The position numbers were made by a program, and so were the translations under genes. Under the pieces are notes generated by a model. It saw only the letters and a program-made list of their open reading frames with translations, was not told where the DNA came from and did no database searches. Source: Strigops habroptila (Eukaryota > Chordata > Aves > Psittaciformes > Psittacidae). From it: a DNA stretch of 64,000 nt. The stretch covers positions 3,578,796 to 3,642,795 of the forward strand of contig NC_044296.2 of assembly GCF_004027225.2 (NCBI RefSeq). The letters run 5' to 3'. This document shows positions 3,965 to 64,000 of this stretch, piece by piece (within the stretch, counting starts at the first letter, position 1; each line of letters begins with the position of its first letter).

Positions 3965-6900
3965 ATGGCGGTGAACTACGCGGCCGGGCTCTCGCCCTAC
4001 TCGGACAAGGGCAAGTGCGGCCTCCCCGAGGTGAGCGCGGTGCGGCGCGGTGCGGTGCGGTGCGGTGCGGCGGCACCCCCCCCCGGGGGACACGCGGCGG
4101 CCGCACCGGTTTCCATGGCAACCGCGCCCCCGGCCCCTCTGGGGGTGCCTCCCTGGGGGAGCCCAAAGCGAGGGACCCCCTTTGTGTGTCCCCAGACCCG
4201 CGGCTCCCTCCTCGTTGTCCTCCAGCCCCCAGCACCAGGGGCCTTGTCCGAAGCCCCTCTCCAGGTTTCCTGGAGCCCCTTTAGGCACTGGAGCTGCTCT
4301 AAGGTGTCCCCTTAAGGAGCCTTCTCTCCTCCAGGCTGAAGATGCTCTTTCTGATTAAATGGTTTTGTCATTAAGGCATGCAAAATGTTGTATGGATAAG
4401 AAGGAGTTGTGGCTTGCTGTGTCTCTGTGTGTAGGATCTATCCCTGTTCTCTCCATTCCCATGGTGTTTTTCTCCTGTGCTCAGATTTTTGACCCGCCGG
4501 AGGAGGTGGAGAGGAAGGTTCGGGAGCTGGCAGAATTGATCAGGAGCTCCTCCAACGTGGTGTTCCACACGGGGGCTGGAATCAGCACTGCCTCGGGGAT
4601 CCCTGACTTCAGGTAAGGGCAGCAGGCAAAGGGTGGGGAGGTTCTTGTAAAGCTCTGAATGCTGCCCCAGCCAGAACAACTCCGGTTTTGAGCAATCCCT
4701 TTGATGTTAGGCTGTGCCCATGGAATCATAGAATCATGGAATGGTTTGGGTTGGAAAGGACCTTAAAGCTCCTCCAGCTCCAACCCCCTGCCACGAGCAG
4801 GGACACCTTCCACTAGAGCAGGTTGCTCCAAGCCCCTGTGTCCAACCTGGCCTTGAACACTGCCAGGGATGGGGCAGCCACAGCTTCTCTGGGCACCCTG
4901 TGCCAGCGCCTCAGCACCCTCACAGGGAAGAACTTCTGTCTTATATCTAATATATCTAATTTATATCTAATATATATATATATTAGATATATATATTAGA
5001 TATATATATATAATATATATATTATATATATAATATTATATATATTAGATATAATTAGATATATATATCTAATTATATCTAATATATCTAATATATCTAA
5101 TATATCTTCTGTCTTATATCTAATCTATATATTTTATATATAAAAAAAACCTGAACTTCCCCTGCTTCAGTTTGAACCCATCACCCCTTGTCCTATCGCT
5201 ACAGTCCCTGATGAAGAGTCTCTCTCCAGCATCCTTGTAGCCCCCTTCAGACACTGGAAGCTGCTCTGAGGTCTCCACGCAGCTTCTCTTCTCCAGGCTG
5301 AACAGCCCCAATGTTCTCAGCCTGTCTTCATAGGGGAGGTGCTCTAGCCCTTGGTCACCCTCATGGCCACCCTCCATGTGCTCTGCTTCCCTCAAAAACA
5401 AAATCACTGGTGGCCAACATTCATTCAGTAGTGCCTCGCTCCTCCATTGACAGGGCACGTGGTGCATTTACAACTGTCCTCTCAGAGCCCGAGCTCTCCG
5501 TTCTGACCCTTTCTGTCCCCACTGCTGCAGGGGGCCCAATGGTGTCTGGACTATGGAAGAAAAGGGGCTCTCCCCAAAATTCGACACCACCTTTGAGAGT
5601 GCCAGACCCTCCAAGACTCACATGGCGCTGCTGGGGCTGCAGAGGGTTGGCATCCTGAAATTCCTGGTCAGCCAGAACGTGGATGGCCTTCACGTGCGCT
5701 CCGGATTCCCACGGTACTGCCTGTCCCGCCCGGCTCCGGGTTCCTCATCCCTTTCCCAGCGCTGCCACATGGCTGTTCTTGCTGCCTGATAAGCGACAGC
5801 CTCATGTGCAAGCATGTTTGATGCTGGGGCTTGATTTCCAAGGCTGGTTTGGAAGCTGTGTCTGATGTGGGGAGTGGAACCTGGAAGGGGGACGTAAACC
5901 AGCTTGAATTGAAGAGAGGTTATGGCAGTAATTCAGAGGGTGGTGAAATGAAACCAGCCTCGGTTGATGCTCTCTAGAGGGACACCCAGAAGCCATTTGT
6001 TGGTCACACTGTTGGGCTCTCACATGTTGTCACCCGCCAGCTGTGTGGCTGGAGCTGTTGGTGCCGCTGTGAGCAGCCTGAACCATGGCCTGGGGAAGGA
6101 CACGCTGGCTTCAAGCCAGGCACATGCTCCTGGGAGGTGGGCTCAGAGCACGTGGGCCTTTCCACTGCCTCTGTACCCACCCAGAGGGGTGAAGGGACTG
6201 CAGGGAGGATGAAACTGCTGCTGCTGGTTGCAGAGCCACGTGGTGCCCTGCTTGACCAGCGCTGTCTCACAGCACTGGATCTTGAGCTACTTTTACACTT
6301 TGCTTAAATTGAATTTGTTGAGAGAAAATAAAGAGAGCGCTGCCCCAGAGATGAAACCAGAGAGCCTTACAGAGCATTTTGCCTCTCAATACGTTTGCAA
6401 AACTGCAAGGGCAGCAAGAAGGAGAGAGTCCCACAGTTGGGACCGCTCTGATGTACCTGTGGTGTGGTCAGGGACCCTGCGTGGCCCTGTTCCCTCTGCA
6501 GGGAGCTGCAGTGTATGGAGACAGGGTACAGCATCTGCTCCCCATGTGGTGGGCACTGAGGTATGTTTAGTAGTGGCTGTTTCAGAGGTGTCCTCAAAGG
6601 AACCCACCTCTCCATTAGCACTCATGGCAACAGGCTCTTCAGCCTGTTATAAAAGCCATTTCCAGCACTTAAGACATTGTCTTGTGAGGCACAGTGCTTG
6701 GAGCTGCCTGGAAAGGGAAGGGAAGAGCAGCTGAATTCAAGTAATAAAATAAGATGGAGTTGCGATGAGAACAACGAGCATGAATGGAACCTTGGAGAGG
6801 ATGCATCTCATGAGCATCTTCAGCCATAAGTGGCTGAGATGCCTCCCAGGGGGAAATTCCAGTTATTAAAAGCCTTCAGTCCTGCTCTTTGTGCCACATT

Positions 6901-11385: not shown

Positions 11386-14306
<2,921 letters not shown>

Positions 14307-16748: not shown

Positions 16749-26544
<9,796 letters not shown>

Positions 26545-44338: not shown

Positions 44339-44883
44339 CTGCGACTGTCATGAGTTTGGCTGGGCAGAGCAGAGCTGAATGAGCGTGGGACCCTCCCAGT
44401 AGAAGTGGTGGGATTGGGAAATACTTGCATAGGTGGACTGGCATCCAGTGGTGAGGCTCAGGCCGCTGTAGCCCAAGGCCGGGCATGCCTGCCAGCTCGG
44501 TCCAGATGCAGCCTGGCTGTATTAACCCTGGTCCTTGCCAAGGCTCGCTTGCTGTGACCCAGATCCGTGCTAATTCAGCTGTCCTCCCAGACTGTAGCTT
44601 GGGAGCATCTGGGCTGCATTTCTCCTCCTTCCCAGAGCGGAGGTAAGCATGGATCCGTCCTCGCCTGCTGATGGAGGCATGTCTTAGGTGTTGCGCAGGA
44701 TGGTGGGCTTGATGATGTGGAGAGGAGCCGGTAGCTGGTGCTTGCTGCAGAGCACGCTGGCATCAGCAGATAGGTCCCTGCTCTGCGTTGGGAGTTTGCC
44801 CGTGCGATGTGATGCCTCCAAGCAGCCAAGGCCTCCGCGACTCACTGTGTTTCCTTCTTCTCTCGTAGCCTTTTGCATCGAAG

Positions 44884-47800
44884 ATGGCGGGTGGCGTGGA
44901 CGGCCCCATAGGGATCCCTTTCCCTGATCACAGCAGCGACATCCTCAGCAGTCTGAATGAGCAGAGAAACAACGGGCTGTTGTGCGACGTGGTCATCTTG
45001 GTGGAAGGCCAGGAGTTCCCCACCCACCGCTCCGTCCTGGCGGCCTGCAGCCAGTACTTCAAGAAGCTCTTCACCTCAGGGTTAGTGGTGGACCAGCAAA
45101 ACGTGTATGAGATAGACTTTGTGAGCGCAGATGCCTTGTCGGCTCTGCTGGAGTTCGCTTACACCGCGACCCTTACTGTCAGCACTTCAAATGTCAATGA
45201 CATCCTCAACGCCGCCACACTGCTGGAGATCCCGGCGGTAAGGGATGTTTGCACGGATCTCCTGGACAGGAAGATTCTGGCCAAAAATGACCAGATGGAT
45301 ACAGTAGATCAAATTGATCAAAGGAACCATCTCAGAGCAAAAGAGTACCTGGAGTTCTTCCAGAGCAACCCCGTCAATGGCCATCAAGGCAGCTTTCCGT
45401 GGACCAACCCAGAGTTGAGAGACCTTCAGAGACTGAACTTCCGAGGCCAAGAGGAGGAGGAGGAGGCGGACTGCAATGGCATGGACTTCTACTCGCAAGC
45501 CCCCCTAAACGAAAGACCAAAGGCGAATGACTGTGATCCTGACAGCAACCCAGCCATGTGGCTGGACAGAGAGGAGGAGGAGGCGGCTCCTGGCTCCATG
45601 TTTTCACCTTCTCAGAATGGACATTACAGCAGCCGTGGCCTGGCCACACCGGGAGAAGAGGAGGGGACCCCGGGGGGGACTCTGGACCAGCAGGAAGCCG
45701 GTGACTCCCCCAGCTTTGTTCCTGCTGGAGCGGAGACGGAGGATGATGCAAGGGAGGTGGATGGGATGGCTGCGAGCGCCCTGCTGCAGCAGATGATGAA
45801 TTCCGTGGGGAGGCAGCAGCTCGGGGAGGACGACCGAAAGGATGACGATGGGGTCATGGATTATTACTTGAAATATTTCGGCAGTTCGAACGAGGGCGAT
45901 GTCTATCCATCCTGGTCCCAGAAGGTGGAGAAGAAGATCAGGGCAAAAGCATTCCAAAAGTGCCCCATCTGCGAGAAGGTGATCCAGGGAGCCGGCAAGC
46001 TGCCGCGCCACATCCGCACCCACACCGGCGAGAAGCCCTACGAGTGCAACATCTGCAAAGTCCGATTCACCAGGTAAGGAGCGGGCGGCCGCTGGGGAGA
46101 GGGGCTGTCACACACAAAACCAGCTCTTGGCTTTCCCCAGGCGCTCTCACAGGACTGATCTGGGGCAATTTTATCTTGCCTGCTCAACTCATTCCCATCC
46201 TAACAGGCAAGTTGGATATGAAGGCCAGGGTTTGCCAGAGAGATGAGCAATTTGGGTGCCTGACTCTTGAGGTATCTCAAGAGGCCTGTCTTGATAGCCA
46301 CTGCCACAGCATCCCAGTGTCCTGAATTGCTGAGCTCTGCTGGAAACCTGGCCAGACCTGGGCTTCTTCAGAGGCCAAATAACGTGGTTGATGAAACAGA
46401 ACAGCAGCCCTTGGTATTTCCATCATGGCTGAGGTGCCCAGGGTTGAGGCAAGAGCTGGAGAGTTGTTTAGAAATGGCTCCATGGGGTGCCTGAAGCACT
46501 GGTGGCTGGTAGTTGGGTTGGGAAGAGGTTGGACCCTGCGCTGCTCGTGTCCAGACTCGGCCAACCGTAATGTTCTGAGCGATGGTGGCCCCGAACAACA
46601 CACAAACCCCGGTGGTTCAGCTCCCTGGGGGCGTTCTCCTCAGCCCTGTTTCTAATCAGGGTTCCTCCGCTCCTTCCCTCCGCCATGGGAACACTGAAGA
46701 AAGGGGATATTGTTTGGATCCCTGTGGTTCACTCGAGTCCGCGCGTTGCAGCGCCGCCTCCTCTCTCTGCTCTCTGTGGCTGAGCTGGGGCTGGGGTCCC
46801 ACCCTGGTCCCCCCCCCCAGCCCTGCTGAGGGGCTGCGTGGGCTGCCTGGCGCAGGAGCCAGACTGCTTGTCCTGCCTGCTGGAATATTCCTGGCCTTGA
46901 GAGTGCCGACCGCTTCCCTGCCAGCGCCACCCCTTCCCCAGAGCCTCACTGAGGTCCATGGGGCAGCCCATGGACGTGGCAAGTGAAGCCGATGGGGCTG
47001 AGCCATGGGCAGGAGGCCGCGTCCTGCCCCACGGCGCTGCCAGCCCCCTCGCCGGTGCACACCATGGCCGTGGCCGCACCCAGCCCCACGCTGGAGAGCT
47101 GAGGAATGCAGATAATGGCGGGGGCAGGATGCCAGCACCCGGCCCTGCGCTGGGCCCTGCCACGCGGCACCTCCCTGCCCAGCGCGGGGCCCGAGCCCTC
47201 CGCCACACCTGAGCGGGACAAGGTCCTCCTGCGGATGGATGAGCTGGAGGATGTGGGAATGCCACGGGGTCCCTGGAGGCTGCTGGCGCTGGAGGGGAGG
47301 GGGAGAGATGAGGGGAAGCATGGGGCTTCTGGGGAGGAGGGCACTGATGGGGCAGCACCAACCTCATTGCCAAGCGGGATGTGGTTCTGGGCAACCTCAT
47401 CCAGTTGAACATGTCCCTGCTCATTGCAGGGGGGTTGGAAGTGGATGAGCTTTGAAAGCCTCTTCCAACCCAAACTATTTGGTGATTGCTTTTCAGTCTC
47501 GCCCTCCTCCTGTGGGTATGGGATGGGGACCTGCTCCCCTTGGCCTCCCTGTGAAGAACAGGGGGGAAGCGCTCTCTCCCAGCCCCTCCAACCAAGGCCC
47601 TTTCATACTATACCAGGGCTGTGCTATTTTCCAGCCAAAATACCTCCCCCTGCTTCTTCCTGCAGCTGGCATTTGGGCACGGAGAAGCCTGGATGGGGAC
47701 AGAGGCACATGAGCTTGGCTCGGGCACTCACACCACTTATGGAACATCCTCCATGAGGCTGCAGCTGGTTTCCAGCTCCCTCTGCCCTCGGGTGCCACAG

Positions 47801-50016
47801 CCCTGTCCCCCCAGGACAGGCTGCCATGGGGTACAGCAGAGTGTGGCCATCTCAGGCCGCTGGCCCAGGTCTCCTCTGCTCTGGGTTGTTCTCAGCAGTG
47901 CTGTCCATGAGTTGCTTTTTGCTGCGTCTCCCGCAGCACCTGGGCTGTGCTCAAAGCCTTATCTCAGAGGCCTCTGATGTCAAAATGGGTGCAAACCTGA
48001 CCCATGCCCTCCATCAGCCTTATTGCCTGCCTTTGCCTTCCTTCTCTGTGCTCTCCATCCTCATCTCATCGGGTGACAGTGCATTGCTTGAAAACTAATC
48101 TCTTCCCTTTGCCATTAAAAATGCTGTGTGTCATAGAATCATGGAATGGTTTGGGGTGGAAGGGACCTTAAAGCTCATCCAGTTCCAACCCCCTGCCACG
48201 GGCAGGGACACCTTCCACTAGAGCAGTGGGGAAGCCTGGGCAGGGGGAACCTGCTGGGAGAAGTGCTCCCTTGTCCTGCAGGAGCGTTTGGGGTAAAGGC
48301 TGTTTGGTTTGGGGTGTTCCCCTGCCACCCCCTTGCTGGGTGAGGACCGGAGCCCGTCGGTTCACGCTGACTTCTGCTTCCTGGTTCCTCTGTGTTGGCA
48401 GGGGGAGGAGCGCTGATGGCGCTCTGATAAATCTGCTGAAGGAAAAGCAGAGTGATTTCATAAAAACGATAACGATTTATACAATTCTATAAAGAAATCC
48501 TATTTGAAAAGCAGTTTTGGTGTGTACCACGTTGCTTTAAGCCAGGCCTGCCTTCCCAGCCCCTTTGGGAGCGGTGTTAAAACCAGAGGCGGACACGTTC
48601 TTAGTGTTTTGATTCTTCCCTGAAGGTTTAGGACTTCCTGGGGCCTCGTGCTGCTGGAACTTGCCCCCATGGGTGAAGGCAGCAGTGGTTGTGCTGCACC
48701 AGACCCTGTTCCATAGCGGAGAGCTGGGTCCCCGGTGCCGAGGGGCGCAGTTCCCGTGCGGAGCTCCTCGCTGAGCCACGCGCTCCGTGCCTGATGGGTT
48801 TTTCCTCCAGGAAGCAGCGAGTCCCCGCGGCTCACGTGGCTTCGTTGGCCTCCAGCCCGGCTGCTGCAACTGCCCTCCCCTGGCTCCGGCGCGCTGCGGC
48901 AGCACGGCCTGCCCGGAGCCAGCCCCACGCTGCGCCATGCTCACACCCATACCCGGGCTCGGCCCTGTGGCCAGCTCTGGGCTGCAAGAGAGACATTGAG
49001 GTGCTGGAGCGGGGCCAGAGAAGGGCACCGGAGCTGGTGCAGGGCCTGGGGCACAAGTGTGATGAGGAACGGCTGAGGGACCTGGGGGGGTTTAGTCTGG
49101 AGAAGAGAAGGCTCAGGGGGGACCTTCTCGCTCTCTGCAACTGCCTGACAGGAGGATGGAGCCAGGAGGGGGCTGGTCTCTGCTCCCAAGGAACAAGGGA
49201 TGGGACAAGAGGAAACGGCCTCAAGCTGCACCAGGGGAGGTTTAGATGGAGATTGGGAAGAGTTTATCCACCAAAAGGGTGCTCAGGCATTGGAACAGGC
49301 TGCCCAGGGCAGGGCTGGAGCCACCGTCCCTGCAAGTGTTCACACACCGTGTGGCCGAGGCCCTCAGTGCCATGGGTTAGCGGTGGCCTTGGCAGTGCTG
49401 GGCAGCGGTTGGGCTGGATGAGCTTAAAGGTCTTTTCCAACCCCATTGATTCCATGACCCTGCATCAGGCGATGCTCAGCCCCGTCCCAGTGCGTGGGGA
49501 TGAAGGCAGACCCCCCCCAGCTGACCTGCCCTCCCCTTCCCTGTCCTTTGTGTCCCCCGCAGGCAGGACAAGCTGAAGGTTCACATGAGGAAGCACACGG
49601 GGGAGAAGCCGTACTTGTGCCAGCAATGCGGCGCCGCGTTCGCTCACAACTACGACTTGAAGAACCACATGCGCGTCCACACCGGCCTGCGGCCCTACCA
49701 GTGCGACAGCTGCTTCAAGACTTTCGTCCGCTCCGACCACTTGCACAGGCACCTTAAAAAAGATGGATGCAACGGTATTCCATCCCGGAGGGGCCGTAAA
49801 CCCCGGGTGAGGGATGCCGGGGGTCTACCCACCACCCCGCCGGGGAATCCTGAAGATGGAAGTTTCCCAACTGGTGGGGAGAGTCAAGAATCAGAGGACA
49901 CCCTGCAGAGGAACGGCCAGGAGCAGCAGCACTTTGAGGAGAATTCAAATAATGAAGCATCAGGATTGAATGTAGCAGGAGGGTCGTCCGAGGGTAACAC
50001 GCAAGGACTCTCCTAA
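44884..50016 (+). CDS. ZBTB7A: ZBTB7A (LRF/Pokemon), BTB-zinc-finger transcriptional repressor
   Basis: Two coding exons, 44884-46073 and 49563-50016, give 547 aa (human 584). The exon before the ATG starts at 44869 after a ctcgtag acceptor. The BTB/POZ domain (about residues 10-130) includes [38 protein letters not shown] and [12 protein letters not shown]. An acidic, low-complexity middle follows. Four C2H2-type fingers lie at about 360-380 ([14 protein letters not shown]), 388-408 ([14 protein letters not shown]), 416-436 ([14 protein letters not shown]) and 444-466 ([14 protein letters not shown]); the intron splits finger 2. A basic RRGRKPRVR follows. ZBTB7A binds GC-rich sites in the nucleus, recruits corepressors, and silences fetal globin in mammals. 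The bird protein lacks the long alanine runs of the human middle region, which explains most of the length difference. Confidence 0.97.
47379..47488 (+). repeat. CR1 LINE 3' tail (ZBTB7A intron 2)
   Basis: GATGTGGTTCTGGGCAACCT through CTCATTGCAGGGGGGTTGG to CAACCCAAACTATT. A diverged sense-oriented terminus. Confidence 0.88.
48131..48226 (-). repeat. CR1 LINE 3' tail (ZBTB7A intron 2)
   Basis: Inverted tail starting TCATAGAATCATGGAATGG and ending at CTTCCACTAGAGCAG. It is close to the young subfamily. Confidence 0.92.
48971..49458 (+). repeat. CR1 LINE 3' region, older copy (ZBTB7A intron 2)
   Basis: About 490 bp sense-oriented, from CCAGCTCTGGGCTGCAAGAG through GAGGAACGGCTGAGGGACCT to GGTCTTTTCCAACCCCATTG. 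It diverges more than the young copies and ends about 105 bp before ZBTB7A coding exon 2. Confidence 0.9.
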
Positions 50017-50759
50017 ACCAAAAAACACGAAACAGAAAGTGTCACAAAAATCTAGTTAGTAACTTTTCCTCCCGTTTTTTCTCTCTAAAGATGTTTCTCT
50101 CCCTTTTTTTTAAGAAAAAAAAAAGAAAAAAAAGAGAAAAAAGGAAAAAAAAAAAAGAAAAAAGAATATATATAATGTTTCCAATCTTCCCATCGTAAGC
50201 AGGGCTCCCCCGAGGATCCCTCAGTAGCCAAGGACCTTTTCTTGGAAAGGCAGACGCTAGGAAGCACGGGGTGGGGATGGAAAGTGGCTCTGTCACATGG
50301 AAAAGAGCTTCCATGTAAATCCAAAGCTTTATTTTGTGTCCAAACACACGTTAAAAAGAAAGAAAGAAAAAAAAAATAATAAAAAAAAACCTATTTCAGA
50401 GAGAGATCTATTTAAGAAAAAAAAAGCAAAAATAGCAAAAAAAAAGTGGTAGGAGAGGAAGGGCTCGGTCAGGGCGGGACACGGTGCCTGGAGCGGGGCC
50501 TTCCCCACTCCGCTCTATGGGAAGTCAGAGCTCCAGCGGTGGCTGCTGCGTCCCGGGGCAGCATCCAGGGACACGGGGGTCAGGTTTTTGGGGTGAGGGC
50601 TCAGGGTCCGTCCCAGCAGCCCCGTATGAAGGTGGGTTTGGCACCAGGGGAGCGACGGCGGCGGCTCCGGGGAGAAAATTGCCGAAAATTGCCTAAAAAT
50701 TTGCCTAATCATGTGAGGGACGAGCAGGAGTTTGCAGGGCGCCGGGGTGGGACACGCGG

Positions 50760-50925
50760 TGCGGGGACACCCCGTGGTGGGGACACCCGTTGTTGGTGTG
50801 GGGGCACCCAAGGCTGGGGACAGTCAGCAATGGGGACACCCCATGTTGGGAACACTCTGGCATTGGGGACACCCAATGTTGGGGATACCTAATGTTGGGG
50901 ACCCCCAGTGCTGGGGACACTGTCA
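50760..50925. repeat. Minisatellite, GGGGACACCC-AATGTT units
   Basis: About ten imperfect units around GGGGACACCC, the later ones spaced by CAATGTTG / TAATGTTG. It lies within 0.9 kb of the ZBTB7A stop codon, probably in the 3' UTR. Confidence 0.8.
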
Positions 50926-52705
50926 CCACCAAGGGTGCCCCCATCCCCATCCTGGGGTGTCTGTCTGCTCCCGGGAAGGAGCTGAGATGGATCCGGATCC
51001 CACCGGCCCCTTCCCAGCACCCGCTGCCCCAGCAGAGTTTGGGGCTGGGTTGGGGGGGCCCCAGCTCCTTCCCCCCCACCCCCTCAGTCTCTGCAGTGGG
51101 TTTTAGGCACCGGCCGGCACAGCCGAGCCCCGAAAGCACCTAAAAATGGCAAATTCCTTTTGGAAAAGGTTATTTGAGGTCTCCCTTGAAGGGGCAGGAG
51201 GCCTTTGGGCAGGGAGGGGGGTGATGAGCTGCAGCACCCCGCTCCCCCCAGCCCCCCCATTCCCAAAAAGTAAATATATATATATATATAGAGATGCTCT
51301 ATGGCTCGAGAGGCGGGTAAATACCCCTCGGGGTTAGCGGAGGACGATGAGAAAAGGCACCTTTCAGCTGGTCACCTGTTTTCTAAATGCACATTTTTAA
51401 ATGAAACGAAACAAAACAAAAAAAAAAAAGAGATTTTAAGCCCTTTTATTTTAAAAAAAAAAAAGCACTTTTTAGATTCTCTTCCTTTTATTTTTTGGTT
51501 TTATTTCCTTTTTTTTTTTTTTTTTGGTGTTTTCGTTTTTACTTTCAAAAAGCAAAGAGCAGGTTTTTTGGCCGAATGTATTTTGGAGAGGGAGTGAGAG
51601 GGGAGTGTGTGCTGGGGGGGAGGGCTGAGTGGTGGGGCTGGGGGAGAGATGGATGTTTTATTTAATGCAGAAATAAAAACAAAACGGAAAAAAAAAGCAA
51701 TAAAAAAAGAATTAAAAAAAAAAAAGGAGAATTAAAAAAAAAAAAACCACAAAAAACCATGATTAAAAAAAAAAACACAATAAAACAGAAAAAAAAATAC
51801 AAAGAAGTCTTAGCACTTTGCGATGGAACGGGTACTTTGAGCTCACTTTATCTTAATTTAAAAAGCAAAAGCAAAAAGATGTTTACAAGTGAAAAAAAAA
51901 ACCAACTTCTACGGAAAAAAAAAGTTATTAAAAAAAAAAAAAAGAAAGCCTAAATTTATTTTTGTAAGAAAAAAAAAATAAAAATGTGTATGTATATATA
52001 TATATATATATTTAACAAAGAAAGAGAAAAACCAACAAAAAAACCCCATAGGCAGAATCCCAAGTTGTAGTTCATGGAGCCCCAGCAGCCGGCAGTGGTG
52101 GGATGGGAGGAACGGGGCTCATTCCGACACCAGGCTGAGTTTTAAAGGCAGAAATCCCACGGAAGCTCGAATTCCGGGCGGGAATGCCGGGGTTTGCTCT
52201 GGGGCTGTGTGTTGTTCATTTCTCCCCTTTATTATCATTTTAAGTTTATTCTATTTTATTTCTTCGATGTTTTCTAGCCAGTGCTAGGCCAGACGTCGCT
52301 CCGGACATTGTGGGGGGGGACCCCATGCTCCCGGGGCTTTGTATCCCCCCAGAATTCAGATCCGGGCATCAAATCCCTTGGGAAGAGGCCCAGATAAAAC
52401 CCCCCCCCGCCCCTCCATGGGCTCCTCTGCGTAGCACTGGCTAATTCTGGCATATGCAAAAAGAAAACCCAGCGCGGAATTGTAAATAGACACTTACTTG
52501 AGGTTCTTTATCGTACTTGTTGTGGTATCTCTGGTCTAGTTTGTGTTGATTTGATTTTTCACACACCCCCCCCCTCACCCCCAGCTCCTCGCTGCTGCTT
52601 CCCACCCCCCCCATTCCCGGTCCCCAAAGGAGCCCTGGAAGTGTGTGGGGTTTGGGGCACTTGAGGGATAAACCTGCGGCTCCCTGGGGCTGGCAAAGCT
52701 TGGGC

Positions 52706-53470
52706 AGGAGCGGGAATGGGAGAGAGGAAAGAGGGGAAAGGAAAGGGGGAATCGAGTAAGGTGGGGAAGTGAGGGGAATAGAAAAGAAATAAGAGGGAAT
52801 AAAAAAGAATTCATGGAATCCCAGGCTGGTTTGGGTTGAAGGGACCTTAAAGCTCCTCCAGTCCCAACCCCTGCCCCGGGCAGGGACACCTTCCACTAGA
52901 GCAGGTTGCTCCAAGCCCCTGTGTCCAACCTGGCCTTGAACACTGCCAGGGATGGGGCAGCCACAGCTTCTCTGGGCACCCTGTGCCAGCGCCTCAGCAC
53001 CCTCACAGGGAAGAGCTTCTGCCTAAGAGCTCATCTCAATCTCCCCTCTGGCAGGTTAAAGCCATTCCCCTTGTCCTGTCCCTACAGGCCCTTGTCCAAA
53101 GCCCCTCTCCAGGTTTCCTGGAGCCCCTTTAGGCACTGGAGCTGCTCTAAGGTCTCTCTTCTCCAGGCTGAACCAGCCCAAGGAGGGATAAAAAAGGAAT
53201 AAAGGGAAAAAAGGAAGGGGAAAAACAAAGAGAAATTGGGAGGGAGGGGGAGAGGGAAGGAAGAAATAAGGGGGAATAAAAAAAATAAAGGGGAATAATA
53301 AAGGGGGGAGGGTAAATAAAGGGGGCTAAAAAAAGAGAGAAAAAAGAAATAAGGGGAATAAAAAGAAATGAGGGTGGGGAAATAAAGGGGGAAGAAGAAA
53401 GGCGGGGGAGAGGGAAAAGAAAAAAGGGGTAAAAACAAAGAGAAAATGGCAAAAAAAAAGGAAGAGGAAA
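52706..53470. repeat. Purine-only (GA)n-like tract split by a CR1
   Basis: Bases 52706-52811 and about 53181-53470 consist almost wholly of G and A on this strand (GGGAATAAAAAAG, GGGAGGGAGGGGGAGAGGG and similar). The two halves have the same texture and flank one CR1 insertion. Confidence 0.85.
52812..53180 (-). repeat. CR1 LINE, young copy inside the purine tract
   Basis: Inverted copy with 3' end at 52812 (reads CATGGAATCCCAGGCTGG), running to TTCTCCAGGCTGAACCAGCC. It shares the unusual CCAGGCTGGGATTCCATG terminus with the copy at 60758. Confidence 0.94.
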
Positions 53471-55022
53471 GGTTTAGTCTCAGGATTCCCCACAGCGAGA
53501 ATGTCCCCAGGCCTGTGACAGCCCCGTGTCCCCCCCCCCCGAGCCCCCAGCCCGGCCCTTGCTGGCAGCACTTGAGCACAGCTTCAGTTTGCACTAGAAT
53601 AAAGAAAACAGGCAAAACCTCCCCAAAACCCCCCCCCCAAAACCCGCAGGTTTGTCCCGTCCCGCCGCCCTCGTTCATTGTCGTGGTTTCATTTGGGTTG
53701 ATTTCAGTTGATTTGATTTTGGTTTGATTTCTGCAATTCAGGTTGTGACAAAGTGTTGCCAAAGATCCTGCTGAGTTAGGCCAGGCCGGGAAAAACCGGG
53801 AATAAACCAAAATGCATTAGACATTCCCAAGCCCTGGCCTACCCCCCCCCCGACCCCACAGGTGCCGCTGATGAGGGAAAACAGAGGGAAAATGAAGCTT
53901 TTTTGGTACAAAAGAGGTAAAAAACCCCTCTGAAACCTCCCCCTGCCCCACTGTAAGGCTGGGGGGGGGTGTGTGTGTGGGCATGACACCCCCCCCCCCC
54001 CAAAGTGGCTGGTGACGGGGTTTGGGGTGTATTGGTGGCAATGGGGAGGCTTTGGGGGGGGGGCATCTCCTTCCTCCCCCCAGTGTAAAGATGCTGCATC
54101 CAGCCCCACTGGGGGCTTGTAACCCCCAAAATGGGGCTGAGGGGGGCGAAAAAGTGGGGGGGGGGTCTTACCCACCCCCCGCTCCCCCGCTGGGCTGTGA
54201 TGGGGGGGCTGGTTCTTCTGCAGGGTAAAGGGCTTATTCCCCCCCCTTCAACCCCCATTCAGCACCCACCACTTAGTGCGTGTGTGTGTGTGTGGTTGTG
54301 TGTGTCCCCCCCCGAAAACACCCCCCCGAGGCCTGATTTGAGTATTTAAAAGCAAATAAAGTTCTATCTCGGAGCTCGGATCTATTTATATTTTCGATTA
54401 TAAAGTTTTATTTAAATAAAAGAGGAACCGTTTTGAATCTGCACCGGGGGGGGGGGGTGGGAGGGTTGGGGGGGGCCAAACTGTAGCAAACGTTGCGTTT
54501 CAAGTTGTGTTTTATAATAATTATATATATATATATATACACACACAGCGAGAGCTGGAAGGTCTCCTGGGGCAGGGGGGGACGTGTGAGCCCAGCGAGG
54601 ATGCTCGAGATGGGGCCACTTCTTGGTTTCTTCTTTTCCCCTTTCTCTTTTTTGGGTTTTTTTTTTTCTCTGCGTCTTTATATATATATATATAATCTAT
54701 TCAAGAGATTCTCTATCTAAAGCACTCGCAAGGTTGCAGCGGTTTTTATGTGTAAAACTACTTTTGTGGTATATCTGGGGAGGGGGGGGCGAAAAGGAGT
54801 GAGGAGAAAAAGACAAAACAAAACGGAAAATGAAATATATATATATATTAAAAAACAAGCACAGAAAAGACATTCCATAGATTGTAACTTTGATAGTTCT
54901 TTATAAAGTGTGGGAGACGAGGAAAAAAGAAAACAAACAAAAAAAAAAACAAACAAAAAAAGATAAAAATTAAAATAATAAAAATTGCACTTTTGGGGGG
55001 GGCTTTAAAAACAGAAAAAGAA

Positions 55023-55157
55023 AATAAACTATATATTAAAAACACCCGAGCGACCGGCTGCGTTGTTGTTTGGAGAGGAAGAAGCTTCTTGGCGGGGGGG
55101 GGATCCTTCTGATTTGGGGGATTTTGAGGGGTTTTCTCTTGGTTTTGGGGGTTTATT
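55023..55157. terminator. Convergent poly(A) signals: ZBTB7A side and FOXQ2 side
   Basis: AATAAA on the plus strand at 55023-55028 and AATAAA on the minus strand at 55157-55152 lie about 125 bp apart, between the 3' ends of ZBTB7A and the forkhead gene. Use of either is inferred. Confidence 0.4.
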
Positions 55158-55639
55158 TCTCTTTTCGGGGGGTTTAAGCCCTATTTGGGGTGTCCAGGGG
55201 TGTGTATGGGGGGGTCAGTCCCAGGCTGGTGCCGTGCCTCAGTGTCCCCAAAGGGAACAATCCCCCCGCTTTGGTGGTGCAGGGTTTGGGGGCCCAGCAC
55301 CCCAGCACAGAGCCGGGTCCCCCCCTCCCCATCTCCCCCCATTAAGCTGCTGGTGGGGGGCCGAGGTGTGATGAGGGGGGGACCTCGGGGCTCTAATCGC
55401 GTTTGGGCACAGATTAGGGCCGGGGCAAACACCGGCACCCAGATGGCAGCGGGTTAAGGAGCCTTCGGGGATGGGGTTTGGGGTGTTCACCCCCCCACAC
55501 ACAACCCCCCCAATGGGCGTTGGGACCAGCTGCAAGTGGGGAAACTGAGGCAGGCGGAGGGGACCCTAAAACCCAACCCCCCCAGTCCTGCTGCCACGCC
55601 ATCCCCGAGCGAGCCCCATCACCCCGGACCCCCTTTTAG

Positions 55640-55860
55640 CCCCCCCACAGGGCCCGGCCCGCGTTAGGGGATTACTTTGTGTCATAAGCTTCCTAGTTTT
55701 CGGGAGCGCGAAGAGCTTTGGGGGGTTTATCTCCCGGGATTTAGTGGCCAAGTCGCCTTCCCCAGCGAGACGCCCTAATGCCACTTAACACCTGGGAGCC
55801 GCGAGGCTCATTAGGGGCGTCAGGGACAATTAGTGAGGAAATAATTAGGGCAGGGGCCTG
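55640..55860. promoter_or_regulatory. AT-motif block 3' of FOXQ2, candidate enhancer
   Basis: A non-repetitive stretch amid G-runs. It contains GGGGATTA (55667-55674, CRX/OTX-type core), CAATTAG (55827-55833) and ATAATTAGG (55841-55849). There is no coding content. A regulatory role is inference only. Confidence 0.3.
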
Positions 55861-56210
55861 GTGGGTCTAAGCCCCATATGTGCCTGCGCTGGCGGGGTGG
55901 GGTGGTGGTGGCAGGGACCCCTCCATGGGTGACACCAATGGGCCCTGGGGGGGGACATGGGGCAGCAGGTCCTTTCCTGGGTGGGGAGGTCCCCACTGGG
56001 GCATGGGGGTGCTGGGGGGTCCCGCTGAGGGATGTGAACTCTGGGCTCAGGCCCCATCGCAGTGGGAGATCCAAGGGGGGGCCCTTGGTGTGACTGGGAC
56101 ACGCACATGGGGCGACATCCAGAGCATCCCTGAGCTGATCCTGCCCATAGTTTGGGGGGTCCCATCTGGGCTTCCCTGCCCTTCCCAGCCCCAAGCAGGG
56201 GTAGGGGGGC

Positions 56211-57231
56211 CTACAAGAAGGGGGCCCGGGGCAGGAGGGGACCCCAGGGAGTAGGAACCCGGCCCCAGCCCCAGCGGGTGCGTTGGGGGGCAGCCGGCAG
56301 GGCCAGGGGGGGCGCGGGGGGTGCCGGGGGGCACCAGGGGCAGCAGCAGCCGAGGCCATACAGGGCGTAGGGGTGGTAGAAGCCGACATTCACCCTGCGA
56401 GGGGGAAACAGAGCATGTGGGTCAGCCCTGAGCCCCCAAAACACACCCCCACAGGACCCCCCCGGCCCCACTGACCTGCGGACGCGGCGCCGGGCCCGCC
56501 GGCGGTGGTAGTCCCCTTTGGCGAAGTCCTCCAGGTTGGCCGGGTGGATGGCCCAGAAGTGGCCTTTGCCGTTGTCGCTGCGCCCGGCCTTGACGAAGCA
56601 CTCGTTGAGGGAGAGGTTGTGGCGGACGCTGTTGCGCCAACTCTTCTCCTGGGCCGAGAGGTGCCGTCAGCCACCGCGGCCCCGCCGCAGCCACCCCGCG
56701 TGCGCATCAGTAGGCACCAGAGTGAACAGCGCCCGACCCGCACGGAGCAACCAGCCCCCGGCGCTGCTTGGATCCATCCCGAGACCTGGATGCTGGATCG
56801 GGCTCAGCGGAGACGTGGTGAGTCAAAGCCAGCCCCGACCCCACCCCAACACCAGCACTGTGGGCTCAGCCCCCGTTTGCCCACCCTGAACCATCAAAAC
56901 CGTACCAAAACCAGGGGAAAAGTCAGGGAAAATGGGTCTGGCAGCCCCTCACCTTGTTCTTGAAGTAGGGGTAGTTGTCCATGATCCACTGGTAGATGTC
57001 GGAGAGCAGCAGCTTCTTCTCGGGCGAGGAGAGGATGGCGGTGGAGATGAGGGCGATGTACGACTGTGCCGGCTTGTCCCCGGGCTCCGCCGGGGGCCGC
57101 GGGGGTGCCGGGGGGCTGCGGCCGGGGGGCTCGGGGCTGGCGGGGGCCCGGTCCCCCCGTGCCGACAGCAGGTACTCAATGGTGAAGGAGGCCCCGGGCG
57201 GGCGCCGCTGCCCGGGCCCCGCGTCCCCCAT
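56211..57231 (-). CDS. FOXQ2: FOXQ2, forkhead box transcription factor
   Basis: Three minus-strand exons with joined phases: 56953-57231 (93 codons), 56476-56648 and 56211-56394, making 211 aa. The ATG is the first in frame and sits in a strong Kozak context (GGCACCATGG). An N-terminal SFTIEYLLS (residues 15-23) resembles the Groucho-binding EH1 motif. The forkhead domain spans about residues 53-150: [32 protein letters not shown], then [19 protein letters not shown] (recognition helix), [20 protein letters not shown] and [10 protein letters not shown]. The PAQSYI opening and [17 protein letters not shown] are, as I know the family, FoxQ2 features; FOXQ1 and FOXL1 read PPYSYIALI. The C-terminus is short, proline- and cysteine-rich ([12 protein letters not shown]). 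FoxQ2 patterns anterior neural tissue in invertebrates and specifies blue cones in zebrafish. PIAS4 ends about 330 bp upstream on the same strand. Main doubt is subclass naming, not gene reality. Confidence 0.88.
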
Positions 57232-57545
57232 GGTGCCGGCGGTGCGTGGGGAGCGCTCAGGGCCCGGGCGGTAATTAGTGCAGATTAGAGCATTTGCTAA
57301 TTGTGTTTTCACAAACGGGCTGCCTCCAAAGCGGGTGTTTATCTGGCAAAGCCGCGGCTTTAGTGGGATTTGGGCCTTTAAGCCTCATCAATAAAATGAT
57401 TAATCCGCTGGAGGTGGAGGAATTCAAAGTGGCACCGAGGTGCCCGTGGGGCCACCGTGGTCCTTCTGCACCACCACATCCATAACCCACCCCCCTCCAC
57501 GGACCCGGTTTTGGGGTGAGGAGCAATCCCACGGAGCCAAAAAGC
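57232..57545 (-). promoter_or_regulatory. FOXQ2: FOXQ2 upstream region with homeodomain sites
   Basis: Only about 330 bp separates the FOXQ2 ATG from the PIAS4 poly(A) signal. It contains GTAATTAG (57271-57278), CAGATTAG (57281-57288, reads CTAATCTG on the gene strand), GCTAATTG (about 57296-57303) and TGATTAATCC (57397-57406, holding the CRX/OTX core TAATCC). No TATA box is clear. Binding is inferred from motifs alone. Confidence 0.5.
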
Positions 57546-57559
57546 CACCACCGCGTTAA

Positions 57560-60500
57560 ATGTAAATCTTTCTTTTTATTTAACAAACACTATAATTTGA
57601 ACTTTGAAGAATGTGTACTGAGGGAAAGAAAAATAATTTTCTTTTTGTCTTTTTTTGTCTTTTTTTTTCTTTTTTTTTTTTCTCTTCTCTTTACCCAAAA
57701 AAAAAAAAAAAAAAATAAGGAAAGAAACAGGATATAAGAAAACAAACATATGTACAGGAAGAGCTGGCCAACTCAAACAGAAAGCAGTAACACAACCATG
57801 ATGTTTCCAAACAGTGGCTTGGCCTGGAAAATGTAAAAAAGCAATTAAATTAGAATACAAATATTAGGAACAAAAAGTGGACTCTAAAGCTACCGTGTAG
57901 CCAAGGACCGAGCCACTGAACTTCAGACAGTGAAACCGAACATTTTGAGCTCTACCCACGTTTGTTTTAAGCCCCCGCCCACCCCACTGAAACCTGAAAA
58001 CATATTGCTTGAGACACAAACAGAAGAAAAAGAGAGAAGGAAAAGGAAAGTCCACGTCGAACAAGCGAGAGCGTCGCTGGGGGGGGACTCGTGGTGCGGC
58101 TGCCCCCGGCCGCAACGCGCCCGCAGGATGCTGAGGGGACATCGGGGGGTTCGGCACCCCCCAACCCCCTTTTGCCTTCAAGTTTTTGTTTGAGGAGACA
58201 AAACGGAGCTGGGCAGGAAGGGCCAGGAGCGAGGACGAGCCCCCGGCAGCGCCCGGCGCCCGCCTGAGCTGGGCAGGGGATTGGGGGGATCCTGCACCGG
58301 GAAAGACGGGGAGAAGCGGGAGAGGAAGCTCCCGAACCCCCCGGTGGAAGCTTCCTGCTCGGCAGCATTTAGAGGATCGGTTCTTTACTTTTGGGCGAGT
58401 CACTACAAGGAATTCACATCGCTCTGGGTGGACCTCGGTGGCTTTTCTGGTGAGGCGACATCGGCCGCGCTTTGCTTTAACCCAAGCGCGGGGTTGAGTT
58501 TGGTGCCGCTTTGGCCCAAGGGGAGGCAGGAGGGTTGGGACCATGCCGGCAGCCGGGAACAGCAGCTCCCCACGCCACCTCTCACCCGGAGGTCTCCGTG
58601 CAGCACAGGATGATGCGCTGGCAGCCCAAGTGCTGGGCATGGGGACACGGCTGCTGCGTGCCACCCGTCCCACGGGCACGGCGAGGGGTAGGGGCACAGA
58701 ACAACCTGCTTCCAACGTTTGTTTCTCCTCTACAGCTGAGAAAAGCCAGCGAGGTCCAAAGCAAAAGAGAGTTCAGAGGCGTCAAAGCAGGAGCAGCGGA
58801 GCTGCTTCTGCAAAGTTAATTACAAAAATTCCCTAAGACAAAAGTCAAAAAGGTTCCCCGTTTGCAAACTCAAAAGTAACAACGTTTTGCCACCAAGAGC
58901 ATAGCAGTAGCTTTGGGTCTGGGACCAAAGTCTTGAACAGAGAAGTGGAAAGTCCAGAGGCTGTTTAACACGTGGTCGCAGGGCTCCACGCATCGTCCCT
59001 CGGCTCTGTCCTCAACACCCTGCGCCAAAAGTGCCGCCAGCAGCGCCGGTGCCGGGCCGTGCACTGGGTCGTGACTGAAAGAAACCTGAATTGGAGTTTA
59101 CCGAGGTAGTTGGCTAGAAACTGAGATTCCCCCACCTGGCACCTTGTCGAAGGCCCTCGCAGCCCTCGCCCCCTGCCCTGCTCCTGCTCACGTGCCAGGC
59201 GTCCGGCTGTCCTGCAGGTCACTGCCACCACCTCCAGAAACGAAGCCGCCTCAACGAAAAGGGAATGCGCAGCCCTTTTTTAAGTCTTCAAAAACACCAA
59301 GTTATTGCACTTCAAAAATACAACAGATTTGTGGTTCGAGCCCCTCCCCAACCCTTCCCCATGGCTTCTGCTCAACTAAAGTGATGCACTACGCACAATT
59401 TCTACGTTTACCTTCGGATTAGCTTAAAAGGATTCAAACCGTGTCTCTTTACATGAGGTGCAGAGCTGCTGGAGCTCCTATCTAGAACAGTGCGATTCCA
59501 ATTGTACGTCTCTCCCCTTTCGCCCCATGCCCCCCATCCCCAACCCCTAAAAATCCCCTCTAAGCCTCCTGGGTTATGCAAACCTCCCTCACCCCCCCGC
59601 CCTGGCTCCCCCCTCCCGCCCCACCCCGGACTCACACGTCCAGCAAACCCCTTTAGATTAATTAAGGAATGGTTAATTAACAAGACATTAAAATGCACAC
59701 AGCTTTGGAGATGCACGGAGCTGGCTGTCCTGGCAACGTGCAGGTGGAGCTGTGCGTTCCGACTGCCTGGCTGAACACAACTTTCCTTCCTTCCGACTCC
59801 AGTTCAGGGTCAGGCTTTGAGCGGGGTCGTTTTTTCCAACCAAGCAGCAGCTCAATGGTTTGTTTGTTTGTTTTTTCTTTCTTTTTCGTTTGTAGTTTGC
59901 TTTTTGTTTTCTTGTTTTGTCTCGTTTTAATGATTAATTTGGAATAGGAAGGTCAAAGGAGATGAGGGAGGAAGGGAGATGAGATGGGAAAGGACGTTAT
60001 CCCCCTCCTCCAGTTTAATAAGCACCAGAGTATTCAAGTCTGTCCGTTCTGAGATTCAGAGCTGCTTCCGCAGTCAGCAGGCAGAAACTAAACCTTTCTC
60101 ATAAGAGCAGCGTCGTTTTGGTTGGGGTCCCTCATCGTCGTCATCCTCTTCCTCATCTTCCTCCTCCTCTTCCTCTGATGAGGAGCTGTCCAGTGTTAAA
60201 TCCACAACGTCTGCAGTGGCCTTACCGTTCTCACCGTTACTGTTGGGGGTGGGCAACAGCCCGTTCACATCAGAGGAACCTGAGGAGGGGGAAGAGAGGA
60301 CACACTGAGACCCCTCACACCAGCTGAGGGTCTGCTCCCACACCCTCGGTCTCTCATGGCCATGCAGTGACTCGGCCAGCTGGGAGCTATGACCATCATC
60401 TAGGCCAACTGCCCGACCAAAAGCTATATCATGTTATTAAGGGCATTGTCTGAATGCATCAAACATGGAGAGGCTTGAAGACGGACCTCCTCTTGAGGAA

Positions 60501-61966
60501 GCCCATTCAAGGTTTAACCACCCTCTCAGTAAAGAGATGTTTCCTAACGTCCAGTCTAAAAGGCCAAGGGGTGCATGAAACAAACACCATTCCAGCAGCT
60601 GCCTAAAAGAAGAGCCAATGCCACACACCCGATGCTCTCGCTGGGGTCAGACCCTGCTGTGGTGCCCAGCGCCTGCGCCACCTGCCTGGGAGGTGTCTTC
60701 TCAAGAGCAGCCCTGAGGAGAAGGACGTGGGGTGTTGGGTGAGGAGAAGCTCCCCATGACCCGGCTTCAGTGTGTGCTTGAGCCCAGAACCCCCCCGTGT
60801 GCTGGGTGCACCCCCAGAGCGTGAGCAGCAGGTCAAGGAGGGGATCCTGCCCCTCTGCTGCGCTCTGGGGAGACCCCTCCTGCAGTCCTGATCCAGCTCT
60901 GGGGCAGCAGCACAAGAGGGACGTGGAGCTGCTGGAGCGAAGCCAGAGGAGGCCCCGGAGCTGCTGCGAGGGCTGGAGCAGCTCTGCTCTGGAGCCAGGC
61001 TGAGAGAGCTGGGCTGGGGCAGCCTGGAGAAGAGAAGGCTCCTGAAGGGGAGACCTTAGAGCAGCTCCAGTGCCTAAAGGGGCTCCAGGAAACCTGGAGA
61101 GGGGCTTTGGACAAGGGCCTGTAGGGACAGGCCAAGGGGAATGGCTTTAACCTGCCAGAGGGGAGATTGAGATGAGCTCTGAGGCAGAAGCTCTTCCCTG
61201 TGAGGGTGCTGAGGCGTTGGCACAGGGTGCCCAGAGAAGCTGTGGCTGCCCCATCCCTGGCAGTGTTCAAGGCCAGGTTGGACACAGGGGCTTGGAGCAA
61301 CCTGCTCTAGTGGAAGGTGTCCCTGCCTGTGGCAGGGGTTGGGACTGGATGAGCTTTAAGGTCCCTTCAACCCAAACCAGGCTGGGATTCCATGAACAGG
61401 GAACTGGCTACACAACCCCACTGCCAACCCCATCAGCAGACTGCAGCCCTGCCAAAGGACACAGCCTCGCACCGGCTGCCCCACAGACAGCTCTTCTTGG
61501 CAAACCCTTCTTTTCCCACACAAGAACAACGGTGCTGCTCCGGGCTGCTGCCAATGACATTTTGGGGGTCATGGCATATACTGACAAACTTGTTTGTAAC
61601 AACCCAGCTTTGCCAAATAACCCCACCTGGGCTGGGACCTCCTCCACAGGCCCATGATGCTGTTAATTTCTGGAGAGGCTGAAAATGAAGGGTCTGTCCA
61701 AAGGAAGCTCCCAAAGAGCCAAACTCACATTAAGGTATCTCACAGCTTTTCCCAAGCCAGTTGGGGAACTCCAGTTTTGCAGTCTGTGTGCATTACCTAC
61801 TGTAATTTCAAGTCTTCACCCCTGGAGATACTCACCTAGAACTAATATGGGACACTGAGGGCTGCAGCTCCGCTCCTTCTCAGCTCTGATGGGACACCAG
61901 GAGCCATCCACCAGGTACTCGATTTCATCTGCATCTTCACATTCTGTCAGGATCTTTGAGAGGAGC
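57560..61966 (-). CDS. PIAS4: PIAS4 (PIASy), SUMO E3 ligase (last two coding exons and 3' UTR)
   Basis: Two terminal coding exons on the minus strand are 61836-61966 and 60074-60279 (stop at 60076-60074); upstream exons are off the right edge. The first encodes [20 protein letters not shown] then [19 protein letters not shown], the region just after the SP-RING in PIAS4. The last encodes the SUMO-interaction motif [11 protein letters not shown], an acidic E/D run, and the tail [15 protein letters not shown] that matches the PIAS4 C-terminus. PIAS4 attaches SUMO to transcription and DNA-repair factors in the nucleus. The 3' UTR of about 2.5 kb (57560-60073) ends at an AATAAA on the minus strand (57580-57575). 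Junction phase 1 is consistent. FOXQ2 follows on the same strand. Confidence 0.93.
57636..57720. repeat. Adjacent T-run and A-run in the PIAS4 3' UTR
   Basis: A stretch of interrupted T (about 57640-57690) is followed, after CTCTTCTCTTTACCC, by about 20 A. The arms could fold back as a hairpin near the 3' end of the PIAS4 mRNA. Length is liable to sequencing error. Confidence 0.6.
60395..60590 (-). repeat. Old CR1 LINE fragment (PIAS4 last intron)
   Basis: Diverged inverted CR1-like stretch: TTTAACCACCCTCTCAGTAA and AGATGTTTCCTAACGTCCAG resemble the region of other bird CR1s that precedes the 3' UTR. The subfamily is uncertain. Confidence 0.55.
60758..61394 (+). repeat. CR1 LINE, young copy, most complete in the window (PIAS4 intron)
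   Basis: About 640 bp from GACCCGGCTTCAGTGTGTG to AACCAGGCTGGGATTCCATG. It is 5' truncated and encodes no full ORF2. It lies antisense to PIAS4 and shares its 5' start with the copy at 25393 and its 3' terminus with the copy at 52812. Confidence 0.95.
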
Positions 61967-64000
61967 CTGGACGGGAGAAAAGATGCCATCTAGTAAGCTT
62001 GAGGCAATCAGAATGTATTTAGTGATGGGCCTGAAACTGGATCTTCACCTTCAATAGCCCTAAATTGAACAGAAATGTGGTGTTAGCAGAAGGCTGCCCA
62101 GCAGATGGACCTCAAGGACTTGATATATTCCCATAAACCACCCCAGTCCTTTCTGACAATGAACCTGACCCACGAACTAACAGTTTCATTACATGCCATT
62201 AGAAGATAGTTTTGCCTCTTCACCCAGTTTTCCAAGCAGTGGCACTGATTCCAGGTCTCTTGGTGCCCCATCTAGAGCTGGGTGAGGGCTGGTGCAGGAA
62301 CCTTCACACTGAGGCATTAGCAAAGGCAAAATACCCTCCAACATTAGGAACTAAGCAATCCAGTACTTCACTTCCTTCCTTTTGTTTTCCAAAGCCTCCC
62401 CAGCAGCCACCAAAACAATATAAGCAGCCTCCTGCAACAGCAAAAAACCCCATGTCCCCCACTGAAAACACACCCAGTGGAGACACCTCGATGACAAAGA
62501 CACCGACCAGAAGGAGCGAGCCTCCACTCACTGTGCCTCCAAAACTGGGTCCTGGCTTCATTCTGACCTGTCCCACCCCTTGCCTGGGGTGTTTCTTTGC
62601 ACCTACGATTGGAACCACTGTTCTGCAAGGCTTTATTCACTCCTGGCCTTGAACGTTTCCATTTGGTATGAAGGAGAACTAGTAGCAAAAACCTGACAAG
62701 CTCCAGAGAACTATTTGCAGCACAGTGGTGGGAGAAAGTTGCTGCTTTCTCCCAGCTCAAGTAAGAAACATGTTTCCACAGATGGTCCTGTCATCACCCA
62801 GCTGAGCAACCACCAAGGCTGCAATTCCAAACAAGCTGACAAGGCCCAGAGGAGCTTAGACTCGACCAACCACTCACCTCCTCAGGAGCCTGTGCCCCCT
62901 TTTTTGACCACCAACCTCCAGCTGAGACCACCAGGTTCCCTCCAGCTTACTTTCAAGCGAGGTCTGAAGGCTGCCTTCATCCAACAGAACCACGCTGAAG
63001 CCCAGCCTTGAGCACAAAGAGATCCACTGAGCCTTCACCAGTGACAACCTCCTCCTCACCTCACCACTCACACGTGCATTGCTGACCTGTAGAGGTTCCA
63101 CAATCCAGCCCCTCACACCTTCCCCTTCAGTCCCAGCAGCCTTGTTGGAGATCTCAAAGGAACTGGCTTTTCCTGCCGGTGTTGGCCACAGGGCAAAGCA
63201 AACAGGTTATCTATGCCTGAGCTGCTTCAGACAGTCTGAAAAGCCACAAGTCCTGGACCAAATCAGTACCTACAAACACAGCAATGCCCAGAATATTACC
63301 AGCCTGGCCCTGGGAATACACCACCCAGGTGGAGACTCATCTGCTCACTTCACTGCCTTGTGTGCCAAGGGAGCTGGGTGCACCTGAACAATTCCTCTCA
63401 ACGCTTCCTACTTTTGAGGGAACCTGGATCAGAGGCCAATTATCCAAGCCAGGAGGGTGGAGGTAATTTTCCAGAAGCCAAGAACCATGCAGCTTGCTCC
63501 ACCAGTCCTCAGGGCTGCTCTCTGCTTGGCTGCACCACGGTGGGTGTCAGTGGTCCCAGCCTGGAAACCAGGCTCGCTGAGTTCTGAGGCAAAGCAGCTT
63601 CTTCTGGGGGGTGGGTGGAGATTTCTATTGGCTTTAATTCACTCCTTGTTTCTCCCTTTACTCTTGGACAAAAGCCAGGCAATTTATTGTGCTCTTCTCT
63701 AGAGAACCCATATTTCTGGAGCTGACAAGCATCGTTGCCAGCTGTCTGGCTTGCCTCAGGTGGCCCCTGCTGCCAGCCCAGCTCGCTCTGCAGTCTGCAT
63801 CTAGGACTCCATCCACCAGGTCTGCACCAAGGAGAGGGAGATCTCCTGGGTTTTAGAGTAATCCTCTTGGCACACAGCTGCATTTTTAAGTTTTCCAGTA
63901 TGAAACCTCACTCAGACACAGGAGCATCATGTCCAAAGTGTTCCTGTAGTGCTGAACTGTAGCATTCCGGCTCTCTGAGCTCACAGTGAGCCCTCTGCTC
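61967..64000 (-). other. PIAS4: PIAS4 intron, nothing else seen
   Basis: Upstream of the penultimate exon (acceptor at 61967) I found no further exon with PIAS4-like content, no recent CR1 and no simple repeat of note. It appears to be ordinary intron sequence running off the window. Confidence 0.55.

Follow-up and report, generated by a model that had tools for sequence, protein, structure and literature searches.

The question raised by this locus is whether the small forkhead gene between ZBTB7A and PIAS4, in the 64,000-nt stretch of Strigops habroptila DNA analyzed here (the window), is an intact FoxQ2 gene, and what relatives it has elsewhere in the genome. Joining three minus-strand exons at their splice sites gives a frame of 636 nt that translates, with no internal stop, into a protein of 211 residues:

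57231–56953, minus strand: FOXQ2 exon 1, 279 nt, with the start codon, the EH1-like motif and the first half of the forkhead; 3' end AAG|GTGAGG
57166–57186, minus strand: EH1-like (Groucho-binding type) motif FTIEYLL, residues 16–22, N-terminal to the forkhead
56648–56476, minus strand: FOXQ2 exon 2, 173 nt, with the recognition helix and wings; borders CCCAG|GAG and CGCAG|GTCAGT
56394–56211, minus strand: FOXQ2 exon 3, 184 nt, with the C-terminal tail; start CGCAG|GGTG, stop TAG

The two introns (304 and 81 bp) are in phases 0 and 2 with canonical donors and acceptors, and the context of the start ATG, GGCACCATGG, is strong. A single Pfam family was found in the protein, Forkhead (PF00250), at residues 53–135 with an E-value of 2.7e-35 and 120.8 bits against a cut-off of 27. 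The domain is complete, spanning profile positions 2–87 and covering 86 of the 88. The splice sites, the frame and this Pfam match bear out the original prediction of three exons in matching phases encoding 211 residues with a full forkhead, and the suggestion that such a small GC-rich gene is easily missed fits the 92.5% GC at third codon positions. The gene is present in single copy, near-identical matches to the three exons being confined to this locus in the whole genome (1.15 Gb, 89 contigs). Scans of the window with Rfam (gathering threshold) and for tRNAs gave no matches.

The strict EH1 pattern matches the protein once, and shuffles of the non-domain sequence match it in 0 of 20,000 cases (12 of 20,000 with a loose pattern). 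An EH-I-like motif N-terminal to the forkhead has been described for one FoxQ2 group (FoxQ2-N; PMC4077281). According to PMC9539403, most FoxQ2 proteins outside the clade with a C-terminal motif lack an EH-i-like motif, so that its presence is not firm evidence for the class.

The neighboring genes run in the order SIRT6, CREB3L3, MAP2K2, ZBTB7A, FOXQ2, PIAS4, EEF2, where SIRT6, MAP2K2, ZBTB7A, PIAS4 and EEF2 are names assigned by reading the sequence. The flanking frames are as follows:

44869–46074, plus strand: open frame, presumed ZBTB7A first coding exon, with BTB (1.2e-32) and the first zinc finger
49525–50013, plus strand: open frame, presumed ZBTB7A last coding exon, with zinc fingers
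60077–60433, minus strand: open frame, presumed PIAS4 C-terminal exon, with an acidic tail of SUMO-binding type
61819–61989, minus strand: open frame, presumed PIAS4 exon after the SP-RING

Within 20 kb beyond the window, exons with MIZ/SP-RING (2e-19) and SAP (2.2e-07) matches support the PIAS4 name, and these are followed on the plus strand by what we take to be the first exon of EEF2. CREB3L3 is marked by a bZIP match (3.1e-08) in 12617–13045. Pfam returned no family for the frames read as MAP2K2 (17822–18514) and SIRT6 (4359–4613), so these two names are provisional. The predicted position of the gene between ZBTB7A (plus) and PIAS4 (minus) is thereby confirmed in this genome, with domains identified by Pfam and names read from the sequence. 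The neighbors probably follow the same order on human 19p13.3, and FOXQ2 here falls between PIAS4 and ZBTB7A.

Two stretches close to the gene are rich in TAAT cores:

57260–57460, no strand assigned: TAAT-core cluster just upstream of the start codon, weak candidate promoter element
55690–55890, no strand assigned: TAAT-core cluster downstream of FOXQ2, weak candidate enhancer

The upstream stretch holds 6 cores where mononucleotide shuffles give 1.2 (a count of 6 is reached in 0.22% of 5000), with TAATCY/RGATTA sites at 57401 and 57282 that we take to be of OTX/CRX type, and the downstream stretch holds 5 against 0.8 (0.06% of 5000 reach 5). These clusters are only a hint, because both were picked after looking and equal or greater counts occur in 200-bp stretches elsewhere in the window, around 29.2 kb and 59.6 kb.

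Separately, a scan of 46500–64000 found a 347-nt inverted repeat, 98% complementary, with arms at 52810–53156 and 61050–61396 lying 7.9 kb apart on either side of FOXQ2. Since a similar translated stretch recurs at 25326–25859, the arms are probably young transposon copies. The window, otherwise GC-rich, also carries an AT-rich tandem array at 4942–5132 with a period of 37 that can also be read as 2 or 9.

The forkheads of this bird's genome were gathered exon by exon with PF00250, giving 56 matches from which 33 rows were prepared. Seven of the 33 were dropped as incomplete (FOXO_L039, FOXN_L024, FOXN_L023, FOXL3_L025, L018, L019 and L020), and the 26 rows in the tree represent 33 of the 56 matches, the others being partial or unprepared. 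Split genes were assembled from exons located by pattern, and some carry at least one extra residue at the joint. Among these 26 forkheads of one genome, the window gene is sister to a second gene, L017 on contig C3, with an ultrafast bootstrap of 98 and an SH-aLRT of 97. L017 is also the best genome match to the window protein beyond its own exons (3.7e-37; the next is 9.4e-29), with 61% identity over the domain and 59% over the tree columns.

L017 is an intronless gene on the minus strand, running from the ATG at C3:27936394 to the stop at 27935543, with 283 codons within an open frame of 298; mononucleotide shuffling of its 3.25 kb, repeated 300 times, produced no open frame longer than 156. 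Its Pfam Forkhead match has an E-value of 5.5e-35. A pattern scan of the L017 protein gave no EH1-like motif. About 7.3 kb away lies PPP1R3A (C3:27943682–27944002, plus strand; PDB 2m83, 7.6e-63). On the other side of L017 from PPP1R3A, a FoxP gene is present at about 0.4 Mb, as measured to FOXP coiled-coil exons at C3:27528398–27537409, and past these exons is an MDFI-family gene (C3:27341050–27353908). The human order is PPP1R3A, FOXP2, MDFIC. The FOXP call on C3 comes from the coiled-coil exons, the forkhead search having found no FOXP2 forkhead exons on that contig. Other FOXP coiled-coil matches are on C19 and C11, together with FOXP-type forkhead exons and MDFI-family genes, and C84 has another FOXP-type forkhead exon; the C3 exons are therefore FOXP2 by exclusion.

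MDFI-family genes thus lie near FOXP exons on three contigs (C3 at 27.34 Mb, C19 at 2.71 Mb and C11 at 31.13 Mb). This pairing resembles paralogous FOXP regions derived from genome duplication, and a FoxQ2-like match is found near the C3 copy only.

The sister grouping makes both bird genes FoxQ2-like, and by itself it cannot separate FoxQ2I from FoxQ2III. The FoxQ2III genes of amphioxus, lamprey and skate are in close proximity to FoxP genes and are expressed in the gut (PMC12828049). A FoxQ2III retained in a bird would be expected to appear as a FoxQ2-type gene near FOXP, and on its class and gene order L017 is probably FoxQ2III. It is reasonably likely, in our view, that a pair of ancient FoxQ2 genes has survived in birds, with FoxQ2I flanked by ZBTB7A and PIAS4 and FoxQ2III located in the interval from FOXP2 to PPP1R3A. 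PMC12828049 has FoxQ2III lost in bony fishes; in the sections covered, the vertebrates named for its BLAST searches are lamprey, skate, a newt and Xenopus, and its first sequence set came from the literature. We found no published report of a FoxQ2-type gene beside FOXP2 or PPP1R3A in the literature searched, a body that excludes most subscription papers.

Alternatively, L017 might have arisen from FoxQ2I long ago, by retrocopying or dispersed duplication, and have come to lie near PPP1R3A by chance. It is intronless beside a window gene with two introns, it has no EH1-like motif, and the sister relationship of the two bird genes is also what duplication within vertebrates would give. However, a copy of this kind would have to be very old, since beyond the domain the two proteins share no convincing similarity (best local scores 34 and 24). 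An intronless forkhead is moreover the usual state in clade I (PMC9539403), and the site near FOXP matches that of FoxQ2III in amphioxus, lamprey and skate (PMC12828049). We regard a chance copy as unlikely, though it keeps an appreciable share of our belief, and retain FoxQ2III as the preferred reading of L017.

The class of the window gene itself was examined by tree and by motif. A stem of 0.8 changes per column separates the window gene and L017 from the FOXQ1, FOXL1, FOXP, FOXK, FOXM, FOXN and FOXJ rows, where we take L022 to be FOXQ1, L003 and L004 to be FOXL1, and L047 to be FOXP. Both FoxQ2-like rows were flagged for long end branches (0.43 and 0.42), the FOXN, FOXM, FOXP and FOXJ rows are long as well, and the backbone is weak, with 10 of 23 inner branches open; the pairing with L017 is thus firm and the placement among the other classes is not. 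The domain tree foreseen in the original prediction sets the gene apart from the FOXQ1, FOXL1 and FOXP rows, with the forkheads of this genome as its whole comparison and a poorly resolved backbone.

In the alignment, the full run GKGx[FY]WxIHPxNLxDFxxGD occurs in the window gene and L017 and in 0 of the 24 other rows reaching it. The longer wing signature GR..[DN]GKG.[FY]W.IHP.NL.DF..GD is likewise whole in these two only of the 26 rows reaching it. This wing run matches the signature of the FoxQ2 class, for which a conserved domain exists as cd20035. A short wing and IHP alone are not specific to FoxQ2: ahead of GKG the wing is short in the FOXM and FOXP rows as well, and the FOXM row also reads IHP. 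Contig collections from viruses and prokaryotes, searched for relatives of FoxQ2, gave 183 and 233 pattern matches, none of which was confirmed. With the tree confined to the forkheads of this genome, the class name rests on signatures taken as typical of FoxQ2 together with the exclusion of other classes.

The forkhead domain is likewise present in FOXQ1 and FOXL1, but these differ from the window gene in having an unbroken forkhead, a longer wing 1, LNP or LDP in place of IHP, and branches of their own. We reject a FOXQ1 or FOXL1 identity on the tree and the gene structure. The preference of the original prediction for FoxQ2 over these two classes is upheld by the sole partner of the gene, the FoxQ2-like L017 (98/97), and by the presence of the wing signature it had cited.

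The intron in the forkhead of the window gene falls between KNK and EKSW. In the clade II genes of this bird (FOXK, FOXO, FOXM, FOXJ and FOXP) the forkhead intron comes five residues further on, at W[KQ]|N, and that of the FOXN row L033 is about two residues earlier than that of the window gene. Clade I Fox genes are described in PMC9539403 as typically free of a forkhead intron, with gained introns listed, one of them in a FoxQ2. A site five residues away from that of clade II suggests that the window gene, as a member of clade I, acquired its intron independently.

Membership of the window gene in some other Fox class, be it FOXQ1, FOXL1 or a divergent branch of clade II, with a mere resemblance to FoxQ2, would agree with a forkhead intron as a clade II trait under the rule in PMC9539403, with the small offset from the FOXN row L033, with the short wing and IHP of the FOXM row, and with PDB matches led by FOXC2, FOXL2 and FOXA (HNF-3), although the 46 listed matches include none named as a FoxQ2. 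It is made very improbable by the stem that separates the gene from the seven classes named above in the tree, by the unbroken FOXQ1 and FOXL1 forkheads of this genome, and by the distance of its intron from the W[KQ]|N site. Scarcely more credible is a decaying or unexpressed relic, for which the short, low-complexity, GC- and proline-rich tail might speak, given the three-exon open frame, canonical splice sites and intact recognition helix, and the retinal expression of chicken FoxQ2I reported in PMC12828049.

The gene clusters encountered in the forkhead search include a FOXF-FOXC-FOXL1 cluster in two copies, at C25:15427570–15480040 and C26:4107984–4154327, the class names FOXF, FOXC and FOXL1 being our assumption. 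C26 also has what we take to be FOXE1- and FOXB-type genes, which are Z-linked in chicken. A fusion of chromosome 11 to the sex chromosomes, giving a neo-ZW pair, is reported as common to all parrots (PMC8854603). The copies on two contigs fit such a pair, and the bird may be female.

We consider the window gene, with high confidence, to be the bird orthologue of FoxQ2I (FOXQ2), an assignment drawn from class and gene order. As such it is mostly known, a gene of a known kind in a known group rather than one new to science. PMC12828049 places bird FoxQ2 in FoxQ2I, with HCR signal in chicken photoreceptors at E8 and E16, finds no blue cones in zebrafish without FoxQ2I, and has the gene lost in placental mammals and in amphibians. 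The absence from placental mammals and the blue-cone role in zebrafish, both stated in advance, agree with that report. It credits the conserved FoxQ2I synteny of bony fishes to Ogawa 2021, and the Gallus FoxQ2 sequence used there, incomplete at first, was lengthened manually from genomic sequence. In PMC12057980, PR3 cones depend on FOXQ2, both being lost in eutherians and kept in monotremes, and FOXQ2 is expressed in PR6. Complete loss of foxQ2 in tetrapods had been claimed (PMC9539403) and was later contradicted by PMC12828049.

Expression, co-repressor binding and a cone function of the window gene are what we infer from these comparisons and from its motifs. The small forkhead protein would bind DNA through its winged helix, and its N-terminal EH1-like motif probably recruits Groucho/TLE co-repressors. 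By analogy with chicken and zebrafish, its most likely role is to set the identity of blue (SWS2) single cones, both in photoreceptor precursors and in mature cones, and in birds it perhaps also acts in the accessory member of double cones.

The opsins of this genome were surveyed with two queries. The rhodopsin query gave at least 118 matches with 116 of 420 candidates scored, and ten exon stretches were read. The SWS2 query gave at least 22 matches with 113 of 385 candidates scored, the best among the matches listed being 63% identical over 62 residues, on C3. By contig we take the opsin sets to be RH1 (C11), RH2 (C19), SWS1 (C3), pinopsin (C14) and VA opsin (C5). No blue opsin SWS2 was seen among the scored candidates and the ten stretches read with the rhodopsin query, and the blue-cone role is therefore without support from this genome. 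As a separate observation, exons that we take to be of RH2 type lie at C19:3067745–3070754, about 0.33 Mb from the C19 FOXP exons.

For the window gene, the present model gives a complete bird FOXQ2 with its neighbors, where a 2025 study (PMC13332834) left FOXQ2 unanalyzed since the standard genomes of chicken and lizard lack it. The second FoxQ2-like gene, which lies outside the window, is the new point and matters more than the window gene, lying as it does near a much-studied locus, FOXP2 by exclusion. If birds do keep both genes, the published loss of FoxQ2III in bony fishes would be wrong and would not fall at the base of bony vertebrates, the linkage of FoxQ2III with FoxP would have persisted all the way from amphioxus to birds, and sauropsids might still have a midgut cell type positive for FoxQ2III. 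Whether the FoxQ2III gut cell type was lost in bony fishes or only its regulators changed is an open question in PMC12828049, and if L017 is FoxQ2III the fate of that cell type could be tested in chick embryos.

The window gene has the same FoxQ2-type forkhead and wing as the FoxQ2I of chicken, reptiles and ray-finned fishes, a group with a bird member and a neighborhood reported as fixed in bony fishes (PMC12828049), and this comparison, made by description rather than by aligned sequences, brings out no difference from the published gene. FoxQ2III, lost in bony fishes according to the same source, is apparently present here in a bird, a likeness drawn from gene order rather than from an alignment. 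FoxQ2III is near FoxP in amphioxus, lamprey and skate (PMC12828049), and L017 here lies between FOXP-type exons and PPP1R3A.
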